Shown: piece by piece, positions 11,309-23,383 of the stretch
How the letters are laid out: every line of letters begins with the position of its first letter
Position numbering within the stretch: position 1 is the stretch's first letter
IMG/VR virus record: IMGVR_UViG_3300030110_002776
Location: 1 to 41,205 of that record
DNA: 41,205 nucleotides
Origin: a virus
Strand: one strand, 5' to 3'
Program-made: the position numbers and the translations under genes
Notes under the pieces: generated by a model
Databases searched by the model: none
What the model was told of the DNA's origin: nothing
What the model saw: only the letters and a program-made list of their open reading frames with translations

Positions 11309-11340
11309 AGGCATAGTTATCTTCGCAGGTAGCTATGCTT
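11309..11340 (+). other. Hairpin after the 130-aa gene
   Basis: AGGCATAG (11309-11316) pairs with CTATGCTT (11333-11340), 8 bp including one G-U pair that exists only in plus-strand RNA. It lies 16 nt after the stop at 11293. There is no U-run, so it is not a standard terminator. Confidence 0.4.
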
Positions 11341-11415
11341 TGCAACGTTCCATTACTATAAAACAGACACACATTATATAAATAAACAGCACCTAAACAA
11401 TTAAAGGAGATTTCT

Positions 11416-11553: not shown

Positions 11554-11606
11554 CAAACAATTAAGGCTTATATCTCATAAGGATAACAAAACTATGGAGA
11601 TATTAA

Positions 11607-11756
11607 ATGAAACGTTTTAATGTTTCTGCTGTCATTAGTTATGGCAAACATAACACTACTGCTGAAGTAATAGTAAGCAATAGGACTAAGCATCTACGTT
11701 TAGTTAATGGCAAGTGGAAATGTAACAATGGACACATTTATATTCTACCTCAGTAG
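11607..11756 (+). CDS. Small basic beta-rich protein (49 aa)
   Basis: 49-aa product beginning MKRFNVSAVISYGKHNTTAE, with two beta-like halves and a basic C-terminus. GGAG lies 8 nt upstream of the ATG. It follows the small membrane protein gene after 53 nt. Its composition resembles that of the 10901 gene. Unknown function. Confidence 0.55.
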   Translation: MKRFNVSAVISYGKHNTTAEVIVSNRTKHLRLVNGKWKCNNGHIYILPQ

Positions 11757-11773
11757 GGTATAAGCCAGGGGGT

Positions 11774-11803
11774 TTGCATACACCTTCTCACCCAAGTATG
11801 CAA
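11774..11803 (+). other. Hairpin TTGCATAC/GTATGCAA
   Basis: Perfect 8-bp stem (11774-11781 with 11796-11803) and a 14-nt loop, 18 nt after the 49-aa gene. It is the only structure I see in the gap 11757-11902, apart from two CCTAG copies near 11863 and 11877. There is no U-run. Confidence 0.45.
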
Positions 11804-11902
11804 CAAATTTAGAATTAAACTTGACTATATACACAACATAACAAAAACCCATTGGTTGCGGGCCTAGCGTCAAACCTAGTGATGATGTAAAAGGAATAAG
11901 TA

Positions 11903-11962
11903 ATGGCGATTATTTATTCTCCTATCCAAACCTACAGGCATCTTGAAAGATATTTTGTGTAA
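11903..11962 (+). CDS. Possible 19-codon leader ORF
   Basis: MAIIYSPIQTYRHLERYFV, with AAGGA 7 nt before its ATG, ends just before the 11975-12037 hairpin and the 12051-12170 structured RNA. A short ORF ahead of structured RNA could be a leader peptide. At this length it may equally be chance. Confidence 0.25.
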   Translation: MAIIYSPIQTYRHLERYFV

Positions 11963-11974
11963 TGTTAGTCACGA

Positions 11975-12037
11975 GAGTAAGATAACGAGGAACTAGGAGA
12001 GGAGGTGTCTCAATGGAGACGTGTAGTTATCTTATTC
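11975..12037 (+). ncRNA. Stem-loop RNA with inner tetraloop hairpin
   Basis: TAAGATAAC (11978-11986) pairs perfectly with GTTATCTTA (12026-12034). The stem extends to 12 bp with a G-U pair (11977/12035) that forms only in plus-strand RNA. Inside, GTCTC (12007-12011) and GAGAC (12016-12020) close an AATG tetraloop. The region between contains a purine-rich GAGGAACTAGGAGAGGAGG. No protein frame crosses it. It is followed within 15 nt by the 12051 element. Confidence 0.6.
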
Positions 12038-12050
12038 GTTTAATATAATT

Positions 12051-12170
12051 TGGGAGTTGAGAGAAGATACCGTAAGGTCTTACGAGGGTCTAGCTGTCTT
12101 ATATGCAGCTAATAGACATATCACGCTGCCTTAGCATTTATGTCTCCTTTTGCCCTGTTTGAGACTCCCA
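12051..12170 (+). ncRNA. Structured RNA element A: closing stem plus three hairpins
   Basis: A 7-bp perfect closing stem TGGGAGT/ACTCCCA (12051-12057 with 12164-12170) encloses three hairpins: CGTAA-GGTC-TTACG (12071-12084), TAGCTG/CAGCTA (12091-12096 with 12106-12111) and AGACATA/TATGTCT (12114-12120 with 12139-12145). TATAAT sits directly in front (12044-12049). A zinc-ribbon gene with a GGAGGTGA ribosome site begins 27 nt after it. The layout is that of a multi-branch junction such as a riboswitch aptamer or small ncRNA. It is not a tRNA: there is no T-arm next to the closing stem. No known class is recognised. Confidence 0.65.
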
Positions 12171-12196
12171 TTAATTTAAAATAACGGAGGTGAAGT

Positions 12197-12313
12197 ATGA
12201 AAAACGATATAACTATATCATCTAACCCTGATTGTACTTACTGTGGTGGTGATGATGTAATAATAGATGTAGAACCTTGTCCTCTATGTTTACCTGAATA
12301 TAAGGTGACATAG
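12197..12313 (+). CDS. Tiny zinc-ribbon protein (38 aa)
   Basis: 38 aa with two Cys pairs, CTYCGGDD and CPLC, in the spacing of a minimal zinc ribbon; begins MKNDITISSNPD. It has one of the strongest ribosome sites here, GGAGGTGA 6 nt before ATG. It stands alone between two structured RNA segments, so element A upstream may control it. Small zinc ribbons in early phage regions often bind host transcription or nucleic acids, but this is not shown. Confidence 0.65.
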   Translation: MKNDITISSNPDCTYCGGDDVIIDVEPCPLCLPEYKVT

Positions 12314-12367
12314 ATAGTTAACAATGTCTTAAATGTATTGGTTCAGAATAATACTGCCTATTGGGTG

Positions 12368-12420
12368 GGTAGTTAGTCTTTTAGAATCCGAGGCTAGCTA
12401 CCTTCCTAAACATTTATATA
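12368..12420 (+). promoter_or_regulatory. Hairpin followed by TTTATATA before the 44-aa gene
   Basis: An 11-bp stem pairs 12368-12378 with 12392-12402. Two of its pairs are G-U in plus-strand RNA and would be A-C mismatches on the other strand. TTTATATA (about 12413-12420) and an AAAGGAG ribosome site follow. The same order of hairpin, TTTATATA and ribosome site recurs at 12594 and 13970. It may be a processed leader, a weak terminator or a phage-specific promoter. Confidence 0.5.
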
Positions 12421-12442
12421 CTAAATAAAAGGAGCGTTCCAT

Positions 12443-12577
12443 ATGCAAGAAGAAATAGATGCGTATTTACAATCACTACTAGATATTACTGGTAACAATT
12501 ATGCTCAAGCTGCATACATAGTATGTCAAGAGATAGAGGTTAAAAGTAATAGACCCACAACACAATACAACAATTGA
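12443..12577 (+). CDS. Small helical protein (44 aa), unknown
   Basis: 44 aa starting MQEEIDAYLQSLLDITGNNY; an amphipathic helix with a short polar tail. AAAGGAG lies 9 nt before ATG 12443. It is flanked on both sides by strong hairpins, so it may be a separately transcribed or processed unit. No family is recognised. Confidence 0.6.
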   Translation: MQEEIDAYLQSLLDITGNNYAQAAYIVCQEIEVKSNRPTTQYNN

Positions 12578-12593
12578 TTGCAAAACGCATGGC

Positions 12594-12636
12594 AAAGGGG
12601 AGGGAGTAGAATCATCTTCCTCCTTCCCTTTATATA
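12594..12636 (+). terminator. Terminator-like hairpin with TTTATATA
   Basis: AAAGGGGAGGG (12594-12604) pairs with TCCTTCCCTTT (12621-12631), 11 bp with two G-U pairs, 16-nt loop, 16 nt after the stop at 12577. TTTATATA follows directly, a weak U-tract. The ribosome site of the next gene follows at about 12650, so termination may be partial. Confidence 0.5.
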
Positions 12637-12661
12637 AAAATTTAATAATAAGGAGATAAAA

Positions 12662-12976
12662 ATGTCTGATAAAACGTCTAAAGAAAGAGAAATATGTTCA
12701 TGGCCAAAGCATAGTATGCCAACACAACTATCATTTCAAGAAGATTTATGTAATTGGTGGATAGGTTATGCTTGTAGAGAAGAAGACTATAAAACAGTAA
12801 ACGATGTAATAAATGCTGCAACGAGATTAAGTGATTATGTAATACATGACCCTGAAGATGGTTATGGATTTACTAAAGAATTAACTCCAGAAAGCAGATA
12901 TGAAATAATTAGTGAAGTTCTTAGAAAGATAGTAAATAGTTTAATTGAAATAGAAAGAAAAAAGGAGAGAATATAA
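12662..12976 (+). CDS. Unknown early protein (104 aa)
   Basis: 104 aa starting MSDKTSKEREICSWPKHSMP, mostly helical, with NWWIGYACREEDYKTVNDVI and a charged C-terminus ending ERKKERI. AAGGAG is placed well before the ATG. The stop overlaps the next start as TAATG, so the two are co-translated. AT-rich codon use returns here, unlike the genes at 10.9-11.8 kb. No family is recognised. Confidence 0.75.
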   Translation: MSDKTSKEREICSWPKHSMPTQLSFQEDLCNWWIGYACREEDYKTVNDVINAATRLSDYVIHDPEDGYGFTKELTPESRYEIISEVLRKIVNSLIEIERKKERI

Positions 12977-13170
12977 TGTATTTAGATGAAACAATATTGC
13001 AAAGTAGAACAGCTGTAAAACTGGTTAGAGTACTAGATGAAGTTTTTAATTGGGTTGAGCCAGTAGATGAGGAAGAATTTGGCAGCGAAGAATATGAAAA
13101 ATTAAAAAAAGATGTAGAATTAATAAAGCATCTATCTGCTAAAGCAGTAAGAAAAAGAAGTTTTAAATAA
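12976..13170 (+). CDS. Unknown acidic/basic helical protein (64 aa)
   Basis: 64 aa starting MYLDETILQSRTAVKLVRVL, acidic in the middle (EPVDEEEFGSEEYEKL) and basic at the end (KAVRKRSFK). It is coupled to the preceding gene by TAATG, with AAGGAG upstream. It is the last protein gene before the long non-coding stretch 13171-14057. Confidence 0.7.
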   Translation: MYLDETILQSRTAVKLVRVLDEVFNWVEPVDEEEFGSEEYEKLKKDVELIKHLSAKAVRKRSFK

Positions 13171-13519
13171 TTGAGTGTGATTAGCGTCACATAAAATAGT
13201 TATTGGGTGGACAAATTACTCACGTAGATAAACGTTGGCTGTCCTAGGCGGCCATAGAGCTCTTCTCAGGTCAATGCCACAAGTCCTAATAACAGGATGA
13301 ACTTACTATATCAGCTTATTTATAAGCGAGAACACTGGTAAGCAGTCTTTAAGCCTAGATATAGGCAAACCACAGTTGATTCCTTCTTAGACTGGCTGTG
13401 GACTAGAATTATATATGCCCTGTGAGTCTCACGTGAGTATGAGCAAAGTAGTAAAGACTGCAGAAAACTTAATGCTACTAACGCAACACAACTACCGAGC
13501 AAGGGCTTAAATAAGCCGA

Positions 13520-13572
13520 GGGAGTGGGTGTTATATGCTTGAATAACATAAAAAGGTCACTCCCCAGTTTTA
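13520..13572 (+). terminator. Probable Rho-independent terminator inside the non-coding region
   Basis: GGGAGTG (13520-13526) pairs with CACTCCC (13558-13564), and TGTTAT (13529-13534) pairs with ATAACA (13543-13548) above a small internal loop. The stem is followed by CAG and TTTTAT. The GC-rich base and T-run fit a terminator for plus-strand transcripts, but readthrough to 14058 cannot be excluded. Confidence 0.5.
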
Positions 13573-13597
13573 TATAATTACAAGTATGTAACTAGTT

Positions 13598-13674
13598 TAG
13601 TAGCAGTCCTGAGAAGTTACACTAAGTTTATTCCAGGAACTCATAATTGTTCGCACAAGGTATGAGCACTACTA
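13598..13674 (+). ncRNA. Branched RNA sub-element
   Basis: TAGTAG (13598-13603) pairs with CTACTA (13669-13674). Inside are GTCCTG (from 13606) pairing with CAGGA-AC (to 13640) across one bulge, and CTCATA/TATGAG (13640-13645 with 13661-13666) capped by TTGT-TCGC-ACAA. It carries an AGTCCT motif (13605-13610) shared with elements B and C. Confidence 0.5.
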
Positions 13675-13700
13675 TTAAACGAAAAAAAAGCTTGTATAAT

Positions 13701-13830
13701 TGAGAGCCAATAACTGGTCCTATAAGTCCTATTCGAGGGAAAGTAGTGCGGATAGAGAGAACTTAGGTTCTGCGAGGGAATGGTGCAAATCCATCGTGTA
13801 GACTAGGCAAAGGAATATGTGAGGCTCTCA
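13701..13830 (+). ncRNA. Structured RNA element B
   Basis: An 8-bp perfect closing stem TGAGAGCC/GGCTCTCA (13701-13708 with 13823-13830) encloses a hairpin AGAAC-TTAG-GTTCT (13758-13771) and a stem ATGG/CCAT (13780-13783, 13791-13794). The latter has a 7-nt TGCAAAT loop of the T-loop type. Its 5' third (GAGAGCCAATAACTGGTCCT and on) is clearly similar to element C at 17432. CGAGGGA occurs twice (13734, 13773) and GTCCT twice (13717, 13726). TATAAT stands immediately before it (13695-13700). Probably a regulatory or trans-acting RNA of unknown class. Confidence 0.65.
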
Positions 13831-13969
13831 TAATTTTAAATTTACAGGTTATTAATGTAATATACTCTAGACCCTGTAATCGTGGCGACTTCGTGTAGTC
13901 GTAATTAGAAATCAATTAGTCGGATAATGGATTACTAATGTCAATCTATAAACTGAGGAGATGGAGGGA

Positions 13970-14036
13970 GATATTATCCTTAGCAATAGCTAGGTATGAA
14001 TAATAATATCGAGGAAAAAGTGTAGGTTTATATAAT
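13970..14036 (+). promoter_or_regulatory. Hairpin plus TTTATATAAT before the main early operon
   Basis: GATATTAT (13970-13977) pairs with ATAATATC (14003-14010). Above it CCT-AGC (13978-13984, one bulged T) pairs with GCTAGG (13989-13994) with an AATA loop. GAGGAAAAAG, then TTTATATAAT (14027-14036) and an AAGGAG ribosome site follow. The TATAAT has no -35 at the right distance, so if this is a promoter it is not a standard sigma-70 one. Confidence 0.5.
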
Positions 14037-14057
14037 ATAATTAAATAAGGAGAAGTT

Positions 14058-14243
14058 ATGTTAGAAGATATGGATAAAATAAAAGATGTAGTATTATTAT
14101 TTGACCAAGTATGGGCTAATGAAGATAGAATAGGTGAAAAAGATTTTATTAGATTTATAAAAAGATTGAATAGAGATTTAACATCAGAACAAAGATTTGT
14201 AGTATTAACAATAACAATAAATGCTTTAAGGGGGAATAAATAA
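14058..14243 (+). CDS. Unknown small helical protein (61 aa)
   Basis: 61 aa starting MLEDMDKIKDVVLLFDQVWA; alpha-helical and charged, ending ITINALRGNK. It has a good AAGGAGAAGTT leader and is the first gene of a dense rightward operon that runs to 23383. It overlaps the next gene as TAATG. Family not recognised. Confidence 0.75.
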   Translation: MLEDMDKIKDVVLLFDQVWANEDRIGEKDFIRFIKRLNRDLTSEQRFVVLTITINALRGNK

Positions 14244-14476
14244 TGCAAGATAAAAAAGTGTTTTGGTTAGACGGATTTAATGGTGCCGCTAAAGGTGGTG
14301 CTATGTATAGAAGTAGAATACATCTTGATATAGATGAGTTTGAATCTAAATTTAAAGAAAAAGTAGTAGCAATAAGTTTAAAGCATGATGAAGGCAAACC
14401 TTCTTGGACTATTGAATTTATAACAGACGCTACTGATGAATTAGAACAGATGAAAGGATTATCAAATGTTGAGTAA
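14243..14476 (+). CDS. Unknown protein (77 aa)
   Basis: 77 aa starting MQDKKVFWLDGFNGAAKGGA, likely a small alpha/beta domain with one beta hairpin region (KVVAISLKHDEGKPSWTIEF) and an acidic C-terminal helix. TAATG coupling to the preceding gene; AAGGGGG upstream. Overlaps the next gene by 11 nt. Unknown function. Confidence 0.75.
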   Translation: MQDKKVFWLDGFNGAAKGGAMYRSRIHLDIDEFESKFKEKVVAISLKHDEGKPSWTIEFITDATDELEQMKGLSNVE

Positions 14477-14615
14477 TTGTTGTGAAGCTCCTCCATTAGA
14501 CGAAACATTTAGTGGAGGGGATGTCACATTAGGAAGATGTAGTGAGTGTAAAGAAGGTGCAGTATTTAAAGGAGAAAATAATGAGTCAAAAATATATATT
14601 AGGAAAATTAAATAA
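14466..14615 (+). CDS. Small zinc-ribbon protein (49 aa)
   Basis: 49-aa frame MLSNCCEAPPLDETFSGGDV followed by GRCSECKEGA. The Cys-Cys pair and C-x2-C knuckle 19 residues apart match a common small phage zinc-ribbon type (NCC.AP...C..C). It overlaps the end of the 14243 gene by 11 nt and the start of the 14581 gene by 35 nt, and contains the latter's AAAGGAG. Its own ribosome site is weak (AAAGGATTATCAA). Function unknown. Confidence 0.6.
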   Translation: MLSNCCEAPPLDETFSGGDVTLGRCSECKEGAVFKGENNESKIYIRKIK

Positions 14616-14772
14616 AGATAAAAGTTCTTATAATTTAAAAGATTGGGAAGAAGTACCTGATGAAGATTTATGGCAAGATGGTGAAATAAAATATCCTGAA
14701 ATAAAAGATATTATATATCATCAAGTAATTAAACAAGGTGTTTGGAAAATAATAAGGAGAAAAGATGGTTAA
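14581..14772 (+). CDS. Unknown protein (63 aa)
   Basis: 63 aa starting MSQKYILGKLNKDKSSYNLK, acidic middle (EEVPDEDLWQDGEIKYPE) and basic end (KIIRRKDG). The frame is open further upstream from a GTG at 14542. The ATG at 14581 is chosen because AAAGGAG lies 9 nt ahead of it. It overlaps the next start by 8 nt. No family is recognised. Confidence 0.7.
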   Translation: MSQKYILGKLNKDKSSYNLKDWEEVPDEDLWQDGEIKYPEIKDIIYHQVIKQGVWKIIRRKDG

Positions 14773-15061
14773 AGTAAATGGTAAAGAATATGATTTAAGT
14801 AATGAAAAACAACAAACTGAATACTGGAATGAAATAGCTAAAAATACTTTACTTGGCAGAAGAATATTAAAAGTAGAGTATATGTCTAATAAAGAATGTA
14901 ATAATTACGATTGGTATAAAAGACCTATTACTTTTATATTAGATAATGGAACAAGAGTTATAGCTATGCAAGATGATGAAGGTAATGACGGTGGTGTTTT
15001 AACTTGTCTAACAGAAAGCAAGGAAGAAGTATTACCTGTGTTAGGAGTTAAAAATGGGTAG
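14765..15061 (+). CDS. Unknown beta-rich protein (98 aa)
   Basis: 98 aa starting MVKVNGKEYDLSNEKQQTEY. It contains a beta-strand series around RRILKVEYMS, PITFILDNGTRVIAMQDDEG and GGVLTCLTES, as in a small barrel. AAGGAG precedes the ATG. It overlaps the following gene by 8 nt. The pattern of a conserved phage early protein is familiar, but I cannot assign a function. Confidence 0.75.
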   Translation: MVKVNGKEYDLSNEKQQTEYWNEIAKNTLLGRRILKVEYMSNKECNNYDWYKRPITFILDNGTRVIAMQDDEGNDGGVLTCLTESKEEVLPVLGVKNG

Positions 15062-15242
15062 AGTTAAAGCTTTCTTTGAAGATATTATAAAAGGTATGAG
15101 CTTTGATGAAGCAGAATATCACTTTCTTAATTCTAAAAAGAAAAAAAAGAAAAAAGTAATTTATAAAAATAAAGTTAAAGGAGAAAATAATGGGAATGGA
15201 CGTATCAGGAATAAATCCAAAAGTAAACGCATCAATAAATGA
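15054..15242 (+). CDS. Small Lys-rich protein (62 aa)
   Basis: 62 aa starting MGRVKAFFEDIIKGMSFDEA, then a run of seven lysines and a Lys/Asn/Arg-rich tail ending KSKSKRINK. TTAGGAG precedes the ATG. The last 53 nt overlap the 15190 gene in another frame, so the tail composition may be set partly by that gene. A nucleic-acid-binding role is possible. Confidence 0.6.
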   Translation: MGRVKAFFEDIIKGMSFDEAEYHFLNSKKKKKKKVIYKNKVKGENNGNGRIRNKSKSKRINK

Positions 15243-15705
15243 TTTTCCAACATTAAAGAAAATAAAAGAAATGAGAACAAGTGACGAAGGTTGGGAAAAA
15301 AGTATGAAATTACTTGAAAATGACAAATTTTCAGATAAATACTGGGCAGAAGATAAAGAATACAATGATATTAATTGTGGTGTGTATTTCCGTAATAATT
15401 GTTGGTGGTGGAGACCATTATGGAATTATTGTTATACAATAGCAGATGATATAATATCTGAAGATGTATGGGGTAGTGGACATTGTAATGATGGTGCAGG
15501 TCTCAATGCAAAAGATGCAAAGAAGTTAGGTAAAAGACTATTACAAAGTATAGAAGATGGTGAGTGTCTTAAATATCAAGCAGCTTATATACAAAATCAA
15601 GAAGATTCTGATGATGAATTTGCTAGTTCTTATCCATTTGATATAGATAATGTAAAAGAATTTGCAAAGTTTTGTATACAAAGTGGAGGATTTGAGATAT
15701 GGTAA
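15190..15705 (+). CDS. Conserved phage protein of unknown function (171 aa)
   Basis: 171 aa starting MGMDVSGINPKVNASINDFP. It carries GVYFRNNCWWWRPLWNYC, an aromatic motif I have seen in a phage and bacterial family that begins GMDV.G..P, and a conserved-looking DVWGSGHCNDGAGLNAKDA. No catalytic signature is clear. AAAGGAG lies 8 nt before the ATG, within the end of the previous gene. It ends overlapping a small gene at 15699. Confidence 0.75.
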   Translation: MGMDVSGINPKVNASINDFPTLKKIKEMRTSDEGWEKSMKLLENDKFSDKYWAEDKEYNDINCGVYFRNNCWWWRPLWNYCYTIADDIISEDVWGSGHCNDGAGLNAKDAKKLGKRLLQSIEDGECLKYQAAYIQNQEDSDDEFASSYPFDIDNVKEFAKFCIQSGGFEIW

Positions 15706-15854
15706 TGGGAATTGAAAAAAAGTTAGAACAGCTAGATAAAGACCAGTTGGAGACTATATTGCTTAAATTAATTTATACAAATAAAGAAATTAATGTAGGT
15801 AATAAGACAAGAAATGAAGTTAATAAAATATGGGAGAAAGAGTTATATGGCTAA
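15699..15854 (+). CDS. Small helical protein (51 aa)
   Basis: MVMGIEKKLEQLDKDQLETI and on; a single amphipathic helix followed by a basic region, ending KIWEKELYG. ATG 15699 is 9 nt after GGAGG; ATG 15705, overlapping the upstream TAA, is an alternative. It overlaps the next gene's ATG by 8 nt and carries that gene's GGGAG site. It would fit a small accessory regulator, not identified. Confidence 0.6.
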   Translation: MVMGIEKKLEQLDKDQLETILLKLIYTNKEINVGNKTRNEVNKIWEKELYG

Positions 15855-16074
15855 AAAACAAAGTAAACAAGAAAAAGTATTAATGTATCTTCAAAATTAT
15901 GGTTCTATAACACCAATGGATGCTTATGAAATGTTTCATTCTATGAGGCTAGGAGCTATAATTCATACATTAAGACATACTGAACCTTATTATAATATTG
16001 AATCAAAGAAAGAAGGTAAAGCAGGTTATGCAAGATATACTTTAAAACCAGGTATTTATCCTGATTATGAGTAA
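15847..16074 (+). CDS. Helix-turn-helix protein (75 aa)
   Basis: 75 aa; residues 5-50 match the pattern of the phage HTH family sometimes called HTH_39: KQEKVLMYLQNYGSITPMDA, MFHSMRLGAIIHTLR, then a beta hairpin wing. This is a small winged-helix-like DNA-binding protein, likely a regulator or recombination accessory. The frame is open from 15814, but ATG 15847 is preceded by GGGAGAAAGAG and is the natural start. It is followed by a 65-nt gap and the ATPase gene. Confidence 0.75.
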   Translation: MAKKQSKQEKVLMYLQNYGSITPMDAYEMFHSMRLGAIIHTLRHTEPYYNIESKKEGKAGYARYTLKPGIYPDYE

Positions 16075-16139
16075 TTTCTTGAATAATTGTTGGAGAAATT
16101 GTAAATTATAGTGCTATCAAATAAGGAGAAACAAAGATA

Positions 16140-16886
16140 ATGAAAACATTATTAATCGACTTAGAGAATGGCTATAAATCTATTGGGAGTAAAGAAACTA
16201 TTAAAGAAAAATTTGGGTTACCCTTATTAAACTTTAATGACTTTACTTCCTTTAGAAATTTTATAGGTCAAATCTGGTCACGTAAAAAAGTAGAAAAAGA
16301 AGTACAAGTAGGTGGTATATCTGTAAAACAATCAGGCTATGAAATAATAGCTAAAGAGGGTGCAGAGGTAGACTGTATGGTTATAGATACAGCTAGTGAA
16401 ATGTCTAAGAAATATGCAAGAGAATTAAAAGGCAAAGCTGAACAATTGCAATTAAAGCAATGGGGCAAACTTAAAGATACTCTTGATAATTTCTTTTCAT
16501 TTACTAATGCTATACCAGCTAATCTTATTGTTAATTGTCATTGTAAAATGCAAGAAGATAATGAGAATGGTGTAATGAGAGTTATGCCATATATCGAAGG
16601 GTCTACAAAAGTAGATGTTGGTAAATGGTTTGATTTTGTATTATATACTAAAGTTCGTAAAGCTAAAGATGGTACTCGTGAATATGTATGGGTAACATCA
16701 AGAGATGAACATTATTGTCATGCAAAAGATAGAACACAAGAATTACCTGCTGAAATACCACAAGATTATAGTATAATATTCGATGCTGTTAATAAAAAAG
16801 GATGGGATACTGCTAAAGTACTTGTGATAGGTGAGCCAGGTAGTGGTAAGACACTTAGTCTAAGAACGTTAACGAAAATAAACTAG
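16140..16886 (+). CDS. Circularly permuted P-loop ATPase, Sak4/AAA_24-like
   Basis: 248-aa RecA-type NTPase related to phage Sak4 recombination ATPases. In the usual order Walker A comes first. Here the protein begins MKTLLIDLENGYKSIGSKET, the strand that normally follows the P-loop helix. It continues through Walker B VDCMVIDTAS (77-86) and a sensor-like strand LIVNCHCK, then ends with the Walker A motif VIGEPGSGKTLSLRTL (229-244). Joining the C-terminus to the N-terminus would give the standard domain. Start (AAGGAG, 9 nt) and stop are clean. The SSB-like gene follows after 8 nt, as in other Sak4-SSB pairs, so strand annealing or exchange is the likely role. Confidence 0.8.
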   Translation: MKTLLIDLENGYKSIGSKETIKEKFGLPLLNFNDFTSFRNFIGQIWSRKKVEKEVQVGGISVKQSGYEIIAKEGAEVDCMVIDTASEMSKKYARELKGKAEQLQLKQWGKLKDTLDNFFSFTNAIPANLIVNCHCKMQEDNENGVMRVMPYIEGSTKVDVGKWFDFVLYTKVRKAKDGTREYVWVTSRDEHYCHAKDRTQELPAEIPQDYSIIFDAVNKKGWDTAKVLVIGEPGSGKTLSLRTLTKIN

Positions 16887-16894
16887 GAGAAACT

Positions 16895-17413
16895 ATGGGA
16901 ATAGTTGTAACTAAAAAAGAAGGTGGTGGATATGATGAAGGTTGGAAAACTGTAACTGTATCTAACGCTGTAAAGGGTGATTTCAATGGCTCTAAATATA
17001 TTGATTTACACTTTGAAGGATACCCTGAAACTGTAAAATGTCGTGTATGGGAAGCACGTAATAAAGACGGAGAAGAGTTCTCTGTATCTAATATGGTAAG
17101 ATATATTAATCCAACTGTACTAGAAGAAATGGATAAAGATGGCACTGCTGCTGCTAGTCTTGATGATTCGCCAAATGGTTTAAAAGGTAAATCATTACAA
17201 GTGTTATTTTATAAAAAAGCTAATGGCTATTCTGAAATATCACAAAAGGTAGCACCTGCTGTACCATTTGAAAATATAGTAGATAAATTTGACGACAATA
17301 GAATTGCTCGTATAAAAGAGTCTGCTGAAAAATACCAAGCTAGAAGAAATGAAGCTAATGGTGTTGTAAGTGAAACAAATACCGAGTCATCAAATGGTGA
17401 TGTTCCTTGGTAA
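16895..17413 (+). CDS. Single-stranded DNA-binding-like protein
   Basis: 172 aa. The beta-rich N-terminal two thirds contain TVTVSNAVKGDFNGSKYIDL and VLFYKKANGYSEI, consistent with an OB-type domain. A flexible polar linker leads to the C-terminal tip SSNGDVPW. An acidic tip with proline and a terminal aromatic is typical of SSB proteins, which use it to dock partners. It lies directly between the ATPase and the primase-helicase, supporting a replication/recombination role. AGGAG precedes the ATG. Not matched to a named family with certainty. Confidence 0.7.
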   Translation: MGIVVTKKEGGGYDEGWKTVTVSNAVKGDFNGSKYIDLHFEGYPETVKCRVWEARNKDGEEFSVSNMVRYINPTVLEEMDKDGTAAASLDDSPNGLKGKSLQVLFYKKANGYSEISQKVAPAVPFENIVDKFDDNRIARIKESAEKYQARRNEANGVVSETNTESSNGDVPW

Positions 17414-17431
17414 AATAGTATAAACAATAAC

Positions 17432-17526
17432 TAAAGAGAGTCATAACTCGTCCTGTATAAAAGTCCTAACTACGATAACCTTTTCAGGTGCCCTGTTAGG
17501 CAGAGGAACACGTATGGCTCTCTTTA
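17432..17526 (+). ncRNA. Structured RNA element C in the primase-helicase leader
   Basis: A perfect 9-bp closing stem TAAAGAGAG/CTCTCTTTA (17432-17440 with 17518-17526) encloses CCTAAC/GTTAGG (17465-17470 with 17495-17500), capped by ACCT-TTTC-AGGT (17478-17489). Its 5' part resembles element B: GAGAG, ATAACT, GTCCT, TA and AGTCCTA occur in the same order. It fills the only real gap in this part of the operon and ends 20 nt before the primase-helicase ATG, so cis-control of that gene is plausible. Confidence 0.65.
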
Positions 17527-17546
17527 TTAACATAAGGGGAAATAAT

Positions 17547-19292
17547 ATGATAAGAGAATTTGCTTTCGGATTATCAAATAGACATCACTTCTTCCCAAGT
17601 GATAATTCAGTAAAATGGGAAAACGTGGCTAAAGATACATTTCTATCCTTATATGGCTATGATGAAGAGGTAATAGAATACTTTAATGAAAAGAAAACAC
17701 TATCAGGCTATAATGGTATAATATATCTTCCAAGAGAATTTATGCTTGACGTTGATGGTAGTGAAATTGAAGAAGCTCAAGAAAAAACTATTAAATTAGT
17801 TTCTATGCTTAATAATATTGGCGTTCCTAGTAATATTTATTTTAGTGGCAGAGGGTTTCATGTTGGTATTCCAGACAAAGCATTTAAATGGAAACCAGAT
17901 ACAAATCTTCATTTAAAAGTTAAAGATGAGTTAGATAAAAAAGGTATATACAAATATGCTGATGTATCTGTTACTGATAAAACAAGAATAATACGTCTAA
18001 ACAACACATTAAATAGTAAATCTAAATTGTGGAAGATTTATATAACTAATGAAGAATTACTTGAACTAAATAGTTTAGGTATTAAAGCTTTAGCTAATAA
18101 ACCAAGACAAATAGAAATACCTGTATTACAATGTGAACCTGTATTTGATGTAACTGTTAGGGAAGTTAAAAAACAAACTATAAAATACAAAGAAACTGTA
18201 GGTAAAGAACCTGACCCTATGTTATATCCATGCATACAAACAATGTTAAAGGGTACATCTTATGGTGGTAGACATGCAACTGCTTTACGTCTTGCTGCTT
18301 GGTTAAGATGGCGTTATCCAGAAAATATTGTAAGACTTGTAATGGAAGACTGGCGTAAAAGAGTAACTACAAATGAAAATCCATTTAAACAAATAGAAAT
18401 GGACAGAATAGTTACTGATTGCTATAAAGGTCATAATGGTAGTGGCTATAGATATGGCTGTAATGATAAAATAATGGATAAACATTGTAATTCTACATGC
18501 ACATTATTTAAATCAAAGAAATCTCAAGGTATAATGTCTGCTAATGATATGGAAGAAAATTTAATTAGCTGGCTTAAAGGAGACGTAGTTCCTATAAATA
18601 TTGGTAAATTGTATAATGCAGACTTTCCTGTATATCCAGGCGAGTTAGTAGTAATACAAGCTCCACCAAAATCTATGAAAACTATGTTGCTTCAAAATTG
18701 GGTTAATTCATTTAAAAGACCTACATACTTTTTAGAGATGGAGATGTCACCAAGACAGATATGGCAACGTTTCATTCAGATAGAACAAGGATGGACTGAA
18801 GAACAACTTAAAGAACATTATGCTACTGGTCAGTATAAAATGGCTGATAAATTTAATTGGCTTAATGTTGACTATAATGCATGCTTTGCTATTGAACTAG
18901 AAAAGAAAATATCTATGTTACAAGAAAAGCCTGAGATTGTAGTAGTTGACCATATGGGCTTATTACTTTCTAAACATAGAGACTTAAATCTTAAAATGGA
19001 AGAAATAGCAGGTGCTTTAACTGAAGTAGCTGTTAAGCATAACATAGTTGTATTTGCTATATCTGAGATTACTAAATCTGCTATGGTAGAGGGTATGGGT
19101 GTTTCTTCTTCTAGAGGCTCATTTAGAATAGCATATAATGCAAGTAAAATATTATCACTTAAACCAGACAAAGGTTTAGATGGTAATGTTAAGTCATTAC
19201 TTGTTACTACAGAAGCTAACAGAGAAAGAGGTGCTTTAAATACATTAATTAAAGTAGATGGTGTTAAAATGTTAAGTGCAAATAGAGGTTAA
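17547..19292 (+). CDS. Primase-helicase fusion (AEP primase plus DnaB-like helicase)
   Basis: 581 aa from ATG 17547, which follows AAGGGG; an upstream in-frame ATG at 17514 lies inside element C and has no ribosome site. N-terminal archaeo-eukaryotic primase motifs: MLDVDG (D68, D70), SGRGFHV (100-106) and IIRLNNT (R150). Four cysteines (C229, C305, C314, C318) could bind Fe-S or zinc as in PriL-like domains. The C-terminal RecA-like helicase has a P-loop QAPPKSMKT in which the usual Gly before Lys is Met, Walker B IVVVDH (465-469), GSFRIAYNASKI and EANRERG. It would prime and unwind at the viral fork. No DNA polymerase is in the window. Confidence 0.85.
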   Translation: MIREFAFGLSNRHHFFPSDNSVKWENVAKDTFLSLYGYDEEVIEYFNEKKTLSGYNGIIYLPREFMLDVDGSEIEEAQEKTIKLVSMLNNIGVPSNIYFSGRGFHVGIPDKAFKWKPDTNLHLKVKDELDKKGIYKYADVSVTDKTRIIRLNNTLNSKSKLWKIYITNEELLELNSLGIKALANKPRQIEIPVLQCEPVFDVTVREVKKQTIKYKETVGKEPDPMLYPCIQTMLKGTSYGGRHATALRLAAWLRWRYPENIVRLVMEDWRKRVTTNENPFKQIEMDRIVTDCYKGHNGSGYRYGCNDKIMDKHCNSTCTLFKSKKSQGIMSANDMEENLISWLKGDVVPINIGKLYNADFPVYPGELVVIQAPPKSMKTMLLQNWVNSFKRPTYFLEMEMSPRQIWQRFIQIEQGWTEEQLKEHYATGQYKMADKFNWLNVDYNACFAIELEKKISMLQEKPEIVVVDHMGLLLSKHRDLNLKMEEIAGALTEVAVKHNIVVFAISEITKSAMVEGMGVSSSRGSFRIAYNASKILSLKPDKGLDGNVKSLLVTTEANRERGALNTLIKVDGVKMLSANRG

Positions 19293-19293
19293 T

Positions 19294-19782
19294 ATGAGTA
19301 AAAGAAGTCTAAATGAAATAAGTAGTGATATAATGTTAGTACAAAATAGTTTTGAATTAACTGAACAAGAAATTGATGAACAGTTAGATATACTGCATAC
19401 TGAACTACATAAAAAAGAAAATGGTGTTTACTGGTTTTATAAGAATATAGATAGTAAGATTGATTTAGCTAAAGAGTATAAAGAAAAAGCTGATATGGTT
19501 ATTAAAAAGCTTAAATATACTCAAGAAAGCTTAAAAAATCTTGTTATCGAAGCTTATGGAGCTAGTGGACAACTTCCAGCACATGATGATTTCAATCCAA
19601 TTAAAATAGGTGAAACAGGTAAAGTAGAAATAATAGATGAAAAAAAGATACCTGAAGAATACTATGTTGAAAAGATTGTATTAAAGCTGGATAAAAGAAG
19701 GCTACTTGAGGAATTAAAAGAGGGAAAAGATATTCCTGGAGTAGTATTACAAACAAACAAACACGTCAGGGGGTTAAAATGA
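19294..19782 (+). CDS. Gp157-like protein
   Basis: 162 aa. It fits the phage Gp157 family: an N-terminal helical region (LTEQEIDEQLDILHTEL), a coiled coil with KYTQESLKNLVIEAYGASGQ, then a short beta part with VEIIDEKKIPEEYYV and a C-terminal IPGVVLQTNKHVRGLK. ATG 19294 is preceded by AGAGG; the upstream in-frame start at 19276 would overlap the helicase gene further. It is found next to recombination genes in other phages; the biochemical role is not settled. Overlaps the DUF932 gene as ATGA. Confidence 0.75.
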   Translation: MSKRSLNEISSDIMLVQNSFELTEQEIDEQLDILHTELHKKENGVYWFYKNIDSKIDLAKEYKEKADMVIKKLKYTQESLKNLVIEAYGASGQLPAHDDFNPIKIGETGKVEIIDEKKIPEEYYVEKIVLKLDKRRLLEELKEGKDIPGVVLQTNKHVRGLK

Positions 19783-20579
19783 TAAATGCTTATGGAGAAA
19801 TAAGAAAGGTACCTTTAGATTATCAAGGTATTAAGTCTTCAGCTTATGCTGTACAAAGACAAGAAATGGATAAAAGAAGAGGTCTTGAATGGAAAGAATG
19901 TGGAGTAGTAGGTAGTAATTATCTGTTAGTTCCAAATGAAGAAGTAAGAGATATGGCTCTTGAAATAGCTACTAAATCTAAACTTGATTGGAGTGCAATG
20001 AAAACATTCTTTGATGGTAAAAGATACATTCATTTCATGCAATCAAAAACTAATACTACAGAAATAGCAGAAGGTGATGATGTTGCACTGGGTATGGGTT
20101 TTTGGAATAGTTATGATGGTTCAACAGCTCTACAATTTAGAACGTTCCTCGTAAGATTACTATGTACTAATGGTATGATTACTAAAGATTTTATGAATCT
20201 AATGAGGTTCAAGCATAATAAAACATCTGAAGGTTATGAAGATGAGATTATAAACGCTGCTAAAATAGTAGATAACTGTGGAGATGACGTACATGAAGTT
20301 ACTAGTAGAATGAGAAAAATGGTAGAAACACCAGTTGATTTAAATGAACTAGCTATTTTAAGAAATACTAGTTTAAGTGAATTGCCAGTAACATTATGGG
20401 GTAAGATTAGTTCACATTTCTTATGGAAAGAAAGAAATAAAATCTTAAATAATGATACAACATACTGGGATTTCTATAATGCTTGTACTGATGTACTATG
20501 GCATGATAAGAAACCAACAATGGCATCATTTGAACATAATCAAAAGATAACAGATAACCTTCTTCAAGTTTTTGCGTAA
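19779..20579 (+). CDS. DUF932 phage/plasmid protein
   Basis: 266 aa with the typical DUF932 order: N-terminal RKVPLDYQGIKSSAYAV, central MGFWNSYDGSTALQFRTFLV and RLLCTNGMI, and a C-terminal helical region near TYWDFYNACTDVLWH. The family occurs in many phages and plasmids near recombination genes and its activity is unknown. AGGGGG upstream, ATGA overlap with the Gp157-like gene. A strong hairpin follows its stop at 20601. Confidence 0.75.
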   Translation: MINAYGEIRKVPLDYQGIKSSAYAVQRQEMDKRRGLEWKECGVVGSNYLLVPNEEVRDMALEIATKSKLDWSAMKTFFDGKRYIHFMQSKTNTTEIAEGDDVALGMGFWNSYDGSTALQFRTFLVRLLCTNGMITKDFMNLMRFKHNKTSEGYEDEIINAAKIVDNCGDDVHEVTSRMRKMVETPVDLNELAILRNTSLSELPVTLWGKISSHFLWKERNKILNNDTTYWDFYNACTDVLWHDKKPTMASFEHNQKITDNLLQVFA

Positions 20580-20600
20580 TTTGGAGGAACGCTGAGAGCA

Positions 20601-20632
20601 GGGGAGAGTTAGGGCATATACTAGCTCTCCCC
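20601..20632 (+). terminator. Strong 12-bp hairpin between two early genes
   Basis: GGGGAGAGTTAG (20601-20612) pairs with CTAGCTCTCCCC (20621-20632), one G-U pair in plus-strand RNA, 8-nt loop. It lies in the only gap after the DUF932 gene. ATTAATTAGGGG follows, not a T-run, so it is a candidate processing or partial-termination site rather than a classic terminator. Confidence 0.5.
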
Positions 20633-20649
20633 ATTAATTAGGGGAAATA

Positions 20650-21501
20650 ATGAAATTTATACAAAGAAAAACAATGAAAATAAGACCATCTGGTCGTAGT
20701 AGTGATTTTATAACACCATCATTTGGCTTTGGATGTTTATATAAATGTGAGTATTGTTATATGAGAAGACATTTACCTAATGGTTTAAATATTGCTACAA
20801 ACACAGATGCTATAATTGACGAAATACATGCACATTTATGGTTATTACCATGGCCTAAAAAACCTAATCAAACACACGAAAAATATTATACATATGATTT
20901 TAGCTGTAATGAAGATTATATATTACATGCAAAGTATCATGAATGGGATTTATTATTTGATTACTTTAAAACAAATGATAAAGCTATGGGTACTGCAGCA
21001 ACTAAATACGTTAATAAAAAATTACTGGGGTATGATGCTAACAGAAAAATTCGCATAAGGTTTAGCATTATGCCTCAAGTAATATCAGATAAACTAGAAC
21101 CTAGCACATCTAAAATTATAGATAGAATAAAAGCTGTTAATGATTTTTATGAAGCTGGTTATGATGTTCACCTAAACTATTCGCCTATTGTAGTATATAA
21201 AGATTATATAAAAGATTATATAAAATTGTTTAAATTAGTAGACGAAATAGTGGATGAGAGTATTAAAAATAAAGTTAAAGCTGAGTGTATTTACTTAACA
21301 CATAATGAAAAAATGCATAGTATTAATAGTGAAGATGCAAAAGATTTATTATGGAAGCCAGAAATACAGGAGAAAAAAACTTCTAATTATGGTAATGTAA
21401 ATATTAGGTACAAATACAAATTAAAAAGAAAATATATAGAAAATTTTATACAAGCACATGATAATGCTTTACCATGGCAAGAAGTTAGATATATATTTTA
21501 G
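20650..21501 (+). CDS. Radical SAM protein, spore-photoproduct-lyase-like
   Basis: 283 aa. FGFGCLYKCEYCYMRR gives the C-x3-C-x2-C 4Fe-4S motif (C29, C33, C36) at the N-terminus, with SAM-barrel strands after it (KIRIRFSIMPQVIS, YDVHLNYSPIVVY). The ClyrCeYCY form, a basic R-P-S-G-R-S-S lead-in and the overall size resemble spore photoproduct lyase relatives. Repair of a DNA photolesion is therefore possible, but DNA or tRNA modification is equally open. AGGGG precedes the ATG. Followed by small coiled-coil genes. Confidence 0.75.
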   Translation: MKFIQRKTMKIRPSGRSSDFITPSFGFGCLYKCEYCYMRRHLPNGLNIATNTDAIIDEIHAHLWLLPWPKKPNQTHEKYYTYDFSCNEDYILHAKYHEWDLLFDYFKTNDKAMGTAATKYVNKKLLGYDANRKIRIRFSIMPQVISDKLEPSTSKIIDRIKAVNDFYEAGYDVHLNYSPIVVYKDYIKDYIKLFKLVDEIVDESIKNKVKAECIYLTHNEKMHSINSEDAKDLLWKPEIQEKKTSNYGNVNIRYKYKLKRKYIENFIQAHDNALPWQEVRYIF

Positions 21502-21509
21502 GAGGAATA

Positions 21510-21737
21510 ATGGCAAGTAAAAAACCAACAAATAAAGAGATAGTGGCAAAAGTAGAAGTTTTGACTAGGGTTAATAATACCCTAGTTGAAATGATAGAAA
21601 ATTTAAGTGACTCTTTAAAACAATATATAGAGTTTAAAGGTGATGTAGAAGATTTTCACGAGCATCAAAAAGAAATATTAGAAATAAGAAAAAGAATACA
21701 AGGAGAAACAAATGTCAAAGAAAAAATTATCAAATAA
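21510..21737 (+). CDS. Small coiled-coil protein, first of a paralogous pair
   Basis: 75 aa beginning MASKKPTNKEIVAKVEVLTR, helical throughout, with LKQYIEFKGDVEDFHEHQKE. The motif NKEI, about 35 residues, then Y-I-x-F-K-G-D and a downstream F..H recurs in the next gene, so the two arose by duplication. AGGAGG precedes the ATG. It overlaps the next gene by 26 nt. Function unknown. Confidence 0.75.
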   Translation: MASKKPTNKEIVAKVEVLTRVNNTLVEMIENLSDSLKQYIEFKGDVEDFHEHQKEILEIRKRIQGETNVKEKIIK

Positions 21738-21936
21738 AGAAATAACAGAACATCTTAATGCAGTAATACATGATTTGAAATTACTTATAAATCTTTCTCA
21801 AGGAACAGCTACAGCATTAACTAGATATATTCAGTTTAAAGGTGATGAGCCTAACTTTAAAAAACATTTAGAGAATTTAGAAAAAAATGATAAATTAAAG
21901 GAGAATGATGAAAAAACTGAAAAAAATAAGAAATGA
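21712..21936 (+). CDS. Small coiled-coil protein, second paralogue
   Basis: 74 aa beginning MSKKKLSNKEITEHLNAVIH, with LTRYIQFKGDEPNFKKHLEN aligning to the preceding protein, and a very charged tail (KNDKLKENDEKTEKNKK). AAGGAG precedes the ATG. It overlaps the following gene by 32 nt. Function unknown; a small oligomeric coiled-coil adaptor is plausible. Confidence 0.75.
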   Translation: MSKKKLSNKEITEHLNAVIHDLKLLINLSQGTATALTRYIQFKGDEPNFKKHLENLEKNDKLKENDEKTEKNKK

Positions 21937-22129
21937 TGATGTCGTTAATAAGTTAATAGCGTATCAAAGAAAATTATATGGAGGTAAATCTACTGTCAAA
22001 TTAGATGATATAAAGGTAGAATGTTCTAAATGCAAAGTTTATTTTTCTCCATCAGTTTATAGAGCTAAAAAACTTATGTCTGTATATGGAGTAATTAATA
22101 AATGCAGGGAGTGTGAAAATGATTTGTAG
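21905..22129 (+). CDS. Small zinc-ribbon protein (74 aa)
   Basis: 74 aa with VECSKCKVYFSP and INKCRECEND, two C-x2-C knuckles about 24 residues apart, after a basic helical N-terminus (MMKKLKKIRNDDVVNKLIAY). Probably binds zinc and nucleic acid. ATG 21905 or 21908 may be used; the AAAGGAG is very close to the first. It overlaps the next gene by 11 nt. Confidence 0.7.
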   Translation: MMKKLKKIRNDDVVNKLIAYQRKLYGGKSTVKLDDIKVECSKCKVYFSPSVYRAKKLMSVYGVINKCRECENDL

Positions 22130-22274
22130 TAACTGTAAATGTAAAATAGAGCAAAAAGAATCATTTGAAAAAATGGCAAATAGAGTTCTTAAAGCTACGA
22201 AAAAAAAACTAGAAAGGGAGTCTAATTTTGGCATCCCAGATACTAAGGAGAAACAATGGAAAAAAACAAAGTAA
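22119..22274 (+). CDS. Small Cys/Lys-rich protein (51 aa)
   Basis: 51 aa beginning MICSNCKCKIEQKESFEKMA, with CSNCKC at the N-terminus and a Lys-rich helix behind it. GGGAG lies 7 nt before the ATG. It overlaps both neighbours in other frames (11 and 19 nt). Possibly half of a zinc module, or it dimerises to complete a site. No family is recognised. Confidence 0.55.
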   Translation: MICSNCKCKIEQKESFEKMANRVLKATKKKLERESNFGIPDTKEKQWKKTK

Positions 22275-22438
22275 AAAAAACAGCTGCAGATAAGAAACCT
22301 GCAAAAAAAGAAATAAATGAGTTAATGGATTTGCAAAACATAGTTATAGGAATGCATAAGAAACTACAGTTAATTGAAACTAGGACAAGTAGTATAGAGT
22401 CTTGGGTTAAAAAAGTTAGAACAAGAATAGGAATATAA
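22256..22438 (+). CDS. Small basic coiled-coil protein (60 aa)
   Basis: 60 aa beginning MEKNKVKKTAADKKPAKKEI, then a helix with LQNIVIGMHKKLQLIETRTS. The KKEINELM stretch resembles the NKEI segment of the 21510/21712 pair, so it may be a diverged relative. AAGGAG precedes the ATG; the stop overlaps the next start as TAATG. Confidence 0.65.
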   Translation: MEKNKVKKTAADKKPAKKEINELMDLQNIVIGMHKKLQLIETRTSSIESWVKKVRTRIGI

Positions 22439-22641
22439 TGCATCTATCTAGAAAATATATTAGAAAAGCTTTTACAGAAATCGGCATTCAATTAAGTGAG
22501 AATGCTTTAGATAAATTATCTGAAAAATTGAAAATCGATATAGGTAAATACGCACTTAATGCTAAAGATTTAGGCATTAAACGAATAACAGAAGAAAAAG
22601 TTCCAATAATAATAGGAGACTTTAAAGATGGCTTCAATTAG
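22438..22641 (+). CDS. Histone-fold-like protein (67 aa)
   Basis: 67 aa, the size of an archaeal histone. The order fits a histone fold: helix 1 (RKYIRKAFTEIG), loop 1 with QLSENA where histones have RVSDDA, a long middle helix (LDKLSEKLKIDIGKYALNAKD), loop 2 with IKRITEEKV where histones have GRKTIKAEDI, and a short helix 3. Basic residues flank loop 2, but the DNA-contact pattern is weaker than in HMfB. It could compact viral DNA or mimic a host histone. TAATG coupled; the next gene overlaps its end. Assignment is by eye. Confidence 0.55.
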   Translation: MHLSRKYIRKAFTEIGIQLSENALDKLSEKLKIDIGKYALNAKDLGIKRITEEKVPIIIGDFKDGFN

Positions 22642-22855
22642 AGACAAAGCAAAAAACCTTGTTGAGTTTGCTAAGTACACAAATGATAATGAACTTGACT
22701 CTGTGGTAAAAGAGATTGTAAATTTAGTACAGGAACAAAGACTAGAATTATTAACAGAAGTTTTATCACTAATTAAAAGAGGTGCAAGTGAAACCATCAT
22801 CCAGGAAAGGAAAAGGCAGGAGGCTGCAAAACTTTCTAAGAGACAAACTTTATAA
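22628..22855 (+). CDS. Unknown helical protein (75 aa)
   Basis: 75 aa beginning MASIRDKAKNLVEFAKYTND, two or three helices with an acidic middle and a basic C-terminus (ERKRQEAAKLSKRQTL). AGGAG lies upstream, inside the end of the histone-fold gene. The last 68 nt are shared with the nuclease gene in another frame. No family is recognised. Confidence 0.7.
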   Translation: MASIRDKAKNLVEFAKYTNDNELDSVVKEIVNLVQEQRLELLTEVLSLIKRGASETIIQERKRQEAAKLSKRQTL

Positions 22856-23135
22856 TTATTTCCCTACCCTCAGAGAGGGTGACGTTAAGACAGCTGTAAT
22901 GGGAGAGTCTGGTGAAGATATCATTCTTTCCCCTGCAGCAAGGGATTTAATACCGTTTAGCTTTGAATGTAAAAATCAAGAAAGGTTAAACATATGGGAA
23001 TCTTTGTCTCAAGCCGAAGATAATTGCAAAGAATATATACCTGCAGTAGTATTTAAAAGAAACAGAACCAAGACATATATAACTCTTGAATTAGAAGAGT
23101 TTTTAAAAATAATAGGAGAAACAAATGAACGATAA
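22788..23135 (+). CDS. PD-(D/E)XK nuclease, Holliday-junction-resolvase-like
   Basis: 115 aa from GTG 22788 (AGAGG just upstream; GTG 22782 is an alternative). It begins KPSSRKGKGRRLQNFLRDKL, then GESGEDIILSPAARDLIPFS and FECKNQERLNIWESLSQAED. The D...E-x-K pattern (D in GEDI, FECK) and the conserved SPAAR and CKNQE stretches match a widespread family of small phage nucleases. It would cut branched DNA before packaging or act in recombination. It overlaps the previous gene by 68 nt and the next by 11. Confidence 0.75.
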   Translation: MKPSSRKGKGRRLQNFLRDKLYNYFPTLREGDVKTAVMGESGEDIILSPAARDLIPFSFECKNQERLNIWESLSQAEDNCKEYIPAVVFKRNRTKTYITLELEEFLKIIGETNER

Positions 23136-23316
23136 AGACTGGGAAGAAATTCAAAAAGATAGAGAATTAATACAAGAAGCTAGGTCTGCATTATGTGTAG
23201 ATTTAATATCTAAGACAATAAAAAAAGGATGGGAAAATTTAGAAAATTCAGAGAAACTTAGTTTATTTTATACTATATCTGAATTACAATCATTAAAATA
23301 TAAGTTTGTAAGCTAA
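23125..23316 (+). CDS. Small acidic helical protein (63 aa)
   Basis: 63 aa beginning MNDKDWEEIQKDRELIQEAR; helical and acidic at first, ending LQSLKYKFVS. AGGAG lies 8 nt before the ATG within the nuclease gene. It is the last clear gene of the rightward operon. Function unknown. Confidence 0.7.
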   Translation: MNDKDWEEIQKDRELIQEARSALCVDLISKTIKKGWENLENSEKLSLFYTISELQSLKYKFVS

Positions 23317-23317
23317 T

Positions 23318-23383
23318 ATGGAACTAATAATTATTTTATTTGTTGGAGCTATTTTAGTTAGTTATTTTTCTTTAATGTTTTAA
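23318..23383 (+). CDS. Possible 21-aa membrane peptide
   Basis: MELIIILFVGAILVSYFSLM and one more residue: a single hydrophobic helix with an acidic start. There is no ribosome site, and its TAA overlaps by 4 nt the stop of the convergent 1172-aa gene. It could be a real micropeptide or chance in an AT-rich gap. Confidence 0.3.
   Translation: MELIIILFVGAILVSYFSLMF

Follow-up and report, generated by a model that had tools for sequence, protein, structure and literature searches.

A candidate class of structured phage RNA with a conserved core and exchangeable hairpin tips in early regions

Results

The window, by which we mean the whole 41,205-nt stretch of viral DNA analysed here (IMG/VR record IMGVR_UViG_3300030110_002776), carries two related candidate RNA elements on its plus strand, B and C. 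An earlier note on this DNA had correctly placed B before the early operon and C just before the primase-helicase gene. Element B (13698-13833) belongs to what we call scaffold class 1, has a long variable hairpin and is located inside an early leader of roughly 0.9 kb. Element C (17432-17526), a divergent subtype of the same class, sits between an SSB-like gene and the primase-helicase gene. The upstream gene (16895-17413, plus strand, 172 aa) is SSB-like by its position and its acidic C-terminal tip; it has no PHROG or Pfam match of its own, and a single-strand DNA-binding protein PHROG is matched by 7 of 93 upstream neighbours of the elements in relatives. The downstream gene (17547-19292, plus strand) encodes a primase plus DnaB-like helicase. 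Its start was re-assigned to the ATG at 17547, 21 nt past C, from the open reading frame listed, which extends to 17514 and thus into C. Further along, the window encodes a DUF932 protein (19779-20579), a spore photoproduct lyase-like protein (20650-21501) and, on the minus strand, a 3716-aa protein with no Pfam match (26901-38051).

B and C have a common series of short motifs, running from GAGAG to AGTCCTA in the same order, as the earlier note had observed: GAGAGCCA-ATAACT-GGTCCT-ATA-AGTCCTA in B and GAGAGTC-ATAACT-CGTCCT-GTATAAA-AGTCCTA in C. Two things had escaped that note: the 3′ half is likewise conserved (GGCAAAGGAATATGTGAG in B, GGCAGAGGAACACGTATG in C), and the variable hairpin is exchanged, which is the most striking feature of all. 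In B, the 5′ arm of a closing stem, P1 (13701-13708), pairs with its 3′ arm (13823-13830) over 8 bp, a pairing that covaries in relatives. Enclosed by P1 are the conserved 5′ core AATAACTGGTCCT plus ATAAGTCC (13709-13729, with the 5′ arm of a second stem, P2, at 13718-13721), an exchangeable hairpin cassette delimited by sequence comparison (13730-13805), part of which has a relative in a different context in contig L011, and the conserved 3′ core GGCAAAGGAATATGTGA (13806-13822, with the 3′ arm of P2 at 13811-13814). The corresponding parts of C, assigned from the sequence and the covariance model R1 described below, are the P1 arms at 17432-17442 and 17516-17526 (11 bp including one U-G), the 5′ core ATAACTCGTCCT plus GTATAAAAGTCC (17443-17466) and the 3′ core GGCAGAGGAACACGTAT (17499-17515); its cassette (17467-17498) was defined by module clustering and belongs to a family of 6 elements in 5 unrelated flank groups.

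Both closing stems had been described as perfect, 8-9 bp long and different in sequence. The stem of B has 8 bp; that of C is longer and contains the U-G pair. The stems do differ in part, at one inner pair (C-G in B, U-G in C) and at outer A-T pairs, but they are not strongly different, GAGAG/CTCTC being present in both. Since so few pairs differ, the sequences of B and C by themselves are weak evidence of covariation, for which the evidence comes from relatives. The likeness of the two elements is not reproduced by shuffled sequence: 1 of 2000 dinucleotide shuffles of C aligned to B equally well, and across the whole window C is the best-scoring stretch for B. The fold z-score is -5.2 for C, in the consensus shape, and -2.1 for B.

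Relatives were gathered from viral contigs by a primase-helicase search and then by patterns for the two halves of the core, which gave at least 161 elements and at least 121 distinct inserts among the matches listed. The covariance model R1 was built from 27 compact elements of other phages out of 52 candidates, with B and C excluded. R1 found both of them, B scoring 68.1 bits (E = 3e-14 in a 53,637-base record) and C 42.1 bits (E = 5e-8), and no third copy in that record. Loss from close relatives had been another concern; the elements are kept in the closest ones, L001 and L002, and absent from more distant relatives. Collecting relatives by near-exact core patterns inflates the apparent invariance of the core, and the fair figure is therefore the count for the half on which a site was not selected. 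Among 121 listed sites found with the 3′ pattern, the 5′ core is perfect in 67, carries one mismatch in 24, is weak in 6 and is missing in 24, these last being chance matches, broken-off contigs or divergent copies. At 53 listed sites found with the 5′ pattern only, the 3′ core is perfect in 40, has one mismatch in 10 and two in 1, and is missing in 2. By these counts, the core half left out of the search is conserved as well, and we are almost certain that the conserved RNA element of which B and C are members is real.

No family of Rfam 15 matches the element. At the gathering threshold, the scan gave no match in the window and a single tRNA in 14 relatives; permissive scans of B, C and a compact element from L131 returned sub-threshold matches only, and these, Ocean-V among them, were judged to be chance. 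No description of the element was found in the open-licence literature of PubMed Central. In a phage isolate collection, positions 12400-20000 of the window had no DNA match; the primase matched 3 records, all below 60% identity and none useful, the portal gave two weak matches only, and the terminase matched 462 records, again all below 60% identity (24-28% in the 25 matches listed). As all isolate matches are distant, we know of neither a close isolate nor a laboratory host. Two pattern matches came from a genome collection. One of them, L150, is a chance match in high-GC coding sequence lacking the 3′ half; the other, L151 (PCBP01000024.1), is a real class 1 element. Its contig belongs to the bin of a Flavobacteriales MAG, which gives the sole, and weak, pointer to a host.

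The consensus of the element reads P1, CAAYAACUGG, the 5′ arm of P2 (UCCU), RUAAGNCC, the hairpin, GGCAA, the 3′ arm of P2 (AGGA), AUAUGUGA and P1′; the scaffold thus consists of a covarying P1, a conserved internal loop, a four-pair P2, a conserved junction and a hypervariable hairpin. Compensatory changes occur at 10 of the 11 pairs of P1, and the structure as a whole has a covariation score of 0.444, as compared to 0.141 in shuffles and at most 0.130 when the structure is slid. P2 and the two inner pairs of P3 are invariant in the R1 alignment and, as they never vary, draw their support from position and fold. Among 64 distinct P1 stems, G-U pairs outnumber A-C mismatches 26 to 2 on the coding strand, a bias which argues that the element acts as RNA. 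The covariation of P1, this bias and the sense orientation of shared cassettes reported below bear out the earlier reading that B and C are related as RNA structures and are not a DNA repeat. The scaffold also tolerates variation. An optional second stem, which provides a second cassette slot, can stand between GGUCCU and NRAAUAAG (GGTCCT and NRAATAAGTCC in the DNA); of the 121 distinct inserts, 97 are compact, and the NRAAUAAG linker is present in 21 of the other 24. In L010 and L032 there is no junction and P2 runs directly into the hairpin, and in L131 and L138 the tip is nearly empty, with an 8-nt cassette, TGGAGCTA, which indicates that a large cassette is not essential there. A switch in which the 3′ side of P1 pairs with the downstream ribosome-binding site was considered and dropped, such pairing not being conserved by eye.

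According to heuristic gene calls, 84 of 133 distinct elements are flanked on both sides by co-directional genes at most 120 nt away, whereas 39 have such a gene on one side and 10 have none. By the same gene calls, the median distance is 12 nt from the stop codon before the element and 19 nt to the start codon after it. The junction differs among phages, the neighbours being co-directional early genes. The 80 downstream genes represent 27 PHROG families, of which primase/DnaB-like genes are the best represented (18 of 80); others are Sak4-like, exonuclease or sigma-factor-like, and some have no assignment. The junction between the SSB-like and primase genes holds only a short spacer in L006, L008, L009, L010 and L012 and a different structured element in L005. 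Several HNH endonuclease families, with 2 members each among the 93 upstream neighbours, are found just upstream of class 1 elements in relatives, and a link of these genes to cassette exchange is possible.

Thirty-two large records, picked mostly for holding the element, all encode the terminase (32-100% identity); 31 of them contain 37 class 1 matches, one or two each and usually one, and all 37 lie on the strand opposite the terminase. A fair prevalence is given by the 20 records of at least 40 kb among 80 terminase-selected loci listed, of which 9 have a class 1 match and 11 do not, so that the element is not essential to the phage group. Terminators are not enriched in 10000-23900 of the window (3 found, 4.5 expected from shuffles), and the best 60 of 70 promoter-like sites include none in the 100 nt before B or C on the plus strand.

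When the inserts were split into modules, 150 modules fell into 102 clusters. Repeated modules stand mostly in unrelated flanks, the commonest occurring in 8 copies, 8 flank groups and both slots. Same-junction pairs, defined by downstream flanks at least 85% and upstream flanks at least 75% identical, numbered 26; the hairpins are unrelated (module identity below 0.6) in 22 of these and are the same module in 3. The flanks of L031 and L112 are 100% and 99% identical and those of L068 and L092 99-100% identical, with unrelated inserts in both pairs. Over the leader at 13150-14100, the window and L002 agree at 741 positions, with 14 mismatches and 2 gaps (98% identity), outside three intervals, and these three replaced intervals are the hairpin tips of the B scaffold and of two further scaffolds, class 2 and class 6. 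The next 11 kb aligns to L001 in one piece at 96.2%, and the tip of C is unchanged there. Metagenome assembly chimeras are possible for single pairs, but the three simultaneous swaps between the window and L002, in scaffolds without shared cores, are hard to explain in this way. As judged from these alignments, the turnover of cassettes is far faster than sequence change in their flanks.

The modules are hairpins by prediction: three or more basal pairs are present in 43% of 92 modules, versus 17% with random partners, and the fold energies of the cassettes are lower than those of shuffles, with a mean z of -0.89 (n = 82; 46% below -1 and 2% above +1). Moreover, 21 of 119 class 1 cassettes of at least 20 nt recur outside class 1, counting at least 24 nt matched at 85% or more in non-class 1 places, while shuffled cassettes gave 3, 1 and 1; the orientation is sense in 21 of the 21 places where it is defined. 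A looser cross-scaffold test (18 nt, 80%) returned 6 of 32 inserts versus 1-3 in shuffles, and we rely on the stricter one. Complementary ends were not enriched among 1730 segments shared with unrelated flanks (3.65 versus 3.58), in a test that is blunt since these segments include scaffold halves, and the unit of exchange is therefore not cleanly defined.

The early leader of the window contains further scaffolds on the plus strand. Class 2 (13413-13510; RTGAGNCTCACGTSAGTATGA...CTACCGAGCA) has a short covarying closing stem and also occurs in L002, L005, L010, L051, L106, L107, L138 and L190. Directly before B lies the pseudoknot-like class 6 (13577-13699), which has a variable tip and whose apparent pseudoknot is formed by GTAAC/GTTAC in the window and by GCTAAC/GTTAGC in L051 and L018. 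Class 4 (13947-14033), before the first early gene, combines an ATAAACC...GGTTTAT stem with GAGGAGATGGNGGGAGATAT and ATATCGAGGAAAAAGTGTAGG. A pattern scan did not find class 3 (TGACAGGCGAGT...ACTAACGAGGGTCAA, with a variable tip) in the window; it is present in L154 (5050), L177 (4954, minus strand), L018 (1850) and others. Classes 2, 3, 4 and 6 share one plan of stem, conserved core and variable tip, and gave 12, 15, 13 and 17 regex matches, respectively, before duplicate removal. By simple patterns, 6 of 45 records contain class 6, 9 contain class 3 and 5 contain class 4, always with the terminase on the other strand. One class 4 tip, that of L292, is identical to a class 1 stem of L070 at 34 of 34 bases, and a class 3 tip of L177 is identical to a class 1 tip of L204 at 31 of 31.

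Several other features of the early regions were recorded. Two stem-closed intergenic stretches between small early genes at 11940-12180 of the window (AAGATAAC...GTTATCTT and GGGAGT...ACTCCC) look like further structured RNAs. A tRNA gene lies at 1647-1717 of L011, in the same early leader as a class 1 element and about 460 nt before it. The candidate motif TTATGGGAAGATGG ('c5') was set aside as a coding repeat; at the level of this DNA pattern, a EEVPDEDLWEDGE-like motif recurs in a small early gene family, near 14668 in the window and at many other loci.

Discussion

Our comparative analysis of sequence and predicted fold shows B and C as copies of a conserved, sense-stranded structured RNA in predicted early transcripts. 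P1 clamps the element, its internal loop, P2 and junction hardly vary, and the tip carries an interchangeable hairpin cassette. By the same comparisons, such cassettes are common to other scaffolds in the same early regions.

As to the role of the element, we tentatively favour an early display of exchangeable hairpins under diversifying selection, in conflict with the host or with rival phages, and the mechanism taken as a whole is open to considerable doubt. The scaffold would serve as a platform that folds co-transcriptionally between cistrons, with P1 isolating it from the neighbouring mRNA, and the cassette would be displayed to something in the host cell or in a competing phage. In such an arms race, the cassettes may be decoys for, or escape variants from, RNA-recognising factors of the host or a rival phage. 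We infer that the identity of the tip matters; the early location, the speed of turnover and the sharing between scaffolds favour diversifying selection, and early expression together with very fast cassette turnover makes an arms race the most economical reason. Speaking against display are the almost empty tips in L131 and L138, the 11 of 20 terminase-selected large records that do without class 1 and the lack of enriched complementary ends in exchanged segments; furthermore, neutral cassettes combined with high recombination could give a similar pattern. A wider version, which we consider possible and yet more doubtful, is a combinatorial system in which at least classes 1, 2, 3, 4 and 6 would be sockets for a shared and very large pool of hairpins, swapped in sense orientation between scaffolds and phages so that each phage would show a different early RNA display. 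Such a display could plausibly help to evade or block RNA-recognising defences of the host or of rival phages.

Two other readings explain the conserved core well and leave the tips unexplained. The put RNAs of phage HK022 (putL and putR) are about 70 nt long and consist of two stem-loops; each genome has two of them, near the early promoters, and their action extends over 10 kb or more (PMC9378689). A similar processive antitermination, in which the scaffold would bind host RNA polymerase so that terminators are ignored and the tips would be neutral, is fairly unlikely here. It would fit a copy number of one or two per record, the constant location on the early strand, the flexible positions from a few to about 17 kb from the terminase and an unpaired core that is conserved even though terminases are down to 32% identical; against it, terminators are not enriched in the early region, the element often stands mid-operon and not just after a promoter, it is a single P1-closed, multi-part element rather than two stem-loops, it is missing from 11 of the 20 records sampled, and the exchange of cassettes is left unexplained. 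Somewhat less likely still is a self-cleaving or nuclease-processed intercistronic element that would separate and protect early mRNAs, its cassettes being mobile or tolerated at a permissive tip. The tight spacing between stop and start codons fits an intercistronic processing signal, the optional extra stem and the tiny tips would reflect tolerance, and some junctions are empty in relatives; however, B, C and the L131 element match no Rfam ribozyme even at permissive thresholds, and the sharing of cassettes in sense orientation only speaks against simple DNA mobility.

The earlier note had also suggested that B and C mediate common regulation, and this was not upheld: junctions vary, primase/DnaB-like genes follow in 18 of 80 cases, there is usually one copy per record and more than half of the terminase-selected records have none. 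A cis-regulator, either a riboswitch or a protein-bound leader, that controls the primase-helicase together with the early operon would agree with C abutting the primase-helicase ribosome-binding site and with B lying in the early-operon leader. We consider it quite improbable, as the 27 downstream PHROG families leave no constant gene association, the primase junction is empty in five relatives, P1 is stable and no alternative pairing of the ribosome-binding site was seen by eye. A site acting in DNA, for instance an origin of replication or a recombination site resembling integron attC, would suit the usual single copy per record and the cassette-acceptor behaviour. Yet the ratio of G-U to A-C, the strict sense orientation and the records without the element argue against it, and the R-box pair that marks the ends of integron attC sites is not at the element ends on inspection; we hold such a site to be very improbable indeed.

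Exchange of cassettes is known for DNA systems, and we are not aware of any reported family of RNA scaffolds whose hairpins are interchangeable with those of other scaffolds. As far as Rfam and the open-licence part of PubMed Central go, a class 1 RNA with swappable tips is new. In the available sections of the sources, known systems resemble it in part. The put RNAs are likewise cis-acting RNAs of phage early operons with two copies per genome and a conserved fold, and no exchangeable hairpins are described for them there (PMC9378689); class 1, in contrast, is a P1-closed nested element of variable length found mostly between co-directional genes. The PeSLs (promoter early stem-loops) of T4-type phages are also intergenic structured elements, mobile regulatory cassettes linked to genome shuffling (PMC4503421). 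However, a PeSL comprises an early promoter and a stem-loop, whereas the gap before class 1 elements (median 12 nt) leaves no room for a promoter and the hairpin exchanged lies inside a conserved core. GOLLD and ROOL, as far as the source sections go, are large structured phage RNAs without assigned function, GOLLD having a conserved and a less conserved region and often lying near tRNAs (PMC12286853); in contrast to these, class 1 has no Rfam match, is dispersed between genes, is much shorter and has its tip exchanged. Mobile hairpins of mitochondrial DNA (double-hairpin or repetitive hairpin elements) also occur in many intergenic contexts and are, in the portions of the reports at hand, described as DNA repeats, whereas the class 1 hairpins are borne in sense orientation only by conserved RNA scaffolds.

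Overall, our analysis points to a structured RNA class in more than 100 phage contigs that is absent from Rfam and evolves in an unusual way, with its fold and core fixed and the entire tip hairpin swapped for another, even where two phages share about 98% identity over that region. If the cassettes are neutral, they would provide a clear measure of the speed of phage recombination at the scale of a single hairpin. If, as we tentatively favour, the displayed cassettes are functional, they would form a natural library of swappable RNA parts working in the same frame, and may serve as a test bed for RNA-based conflict between phage and host and as a source of modules for RNA engineering. If the combinatorial reading is true, the phages would have an RNA counterpart of cassette-based diversification.
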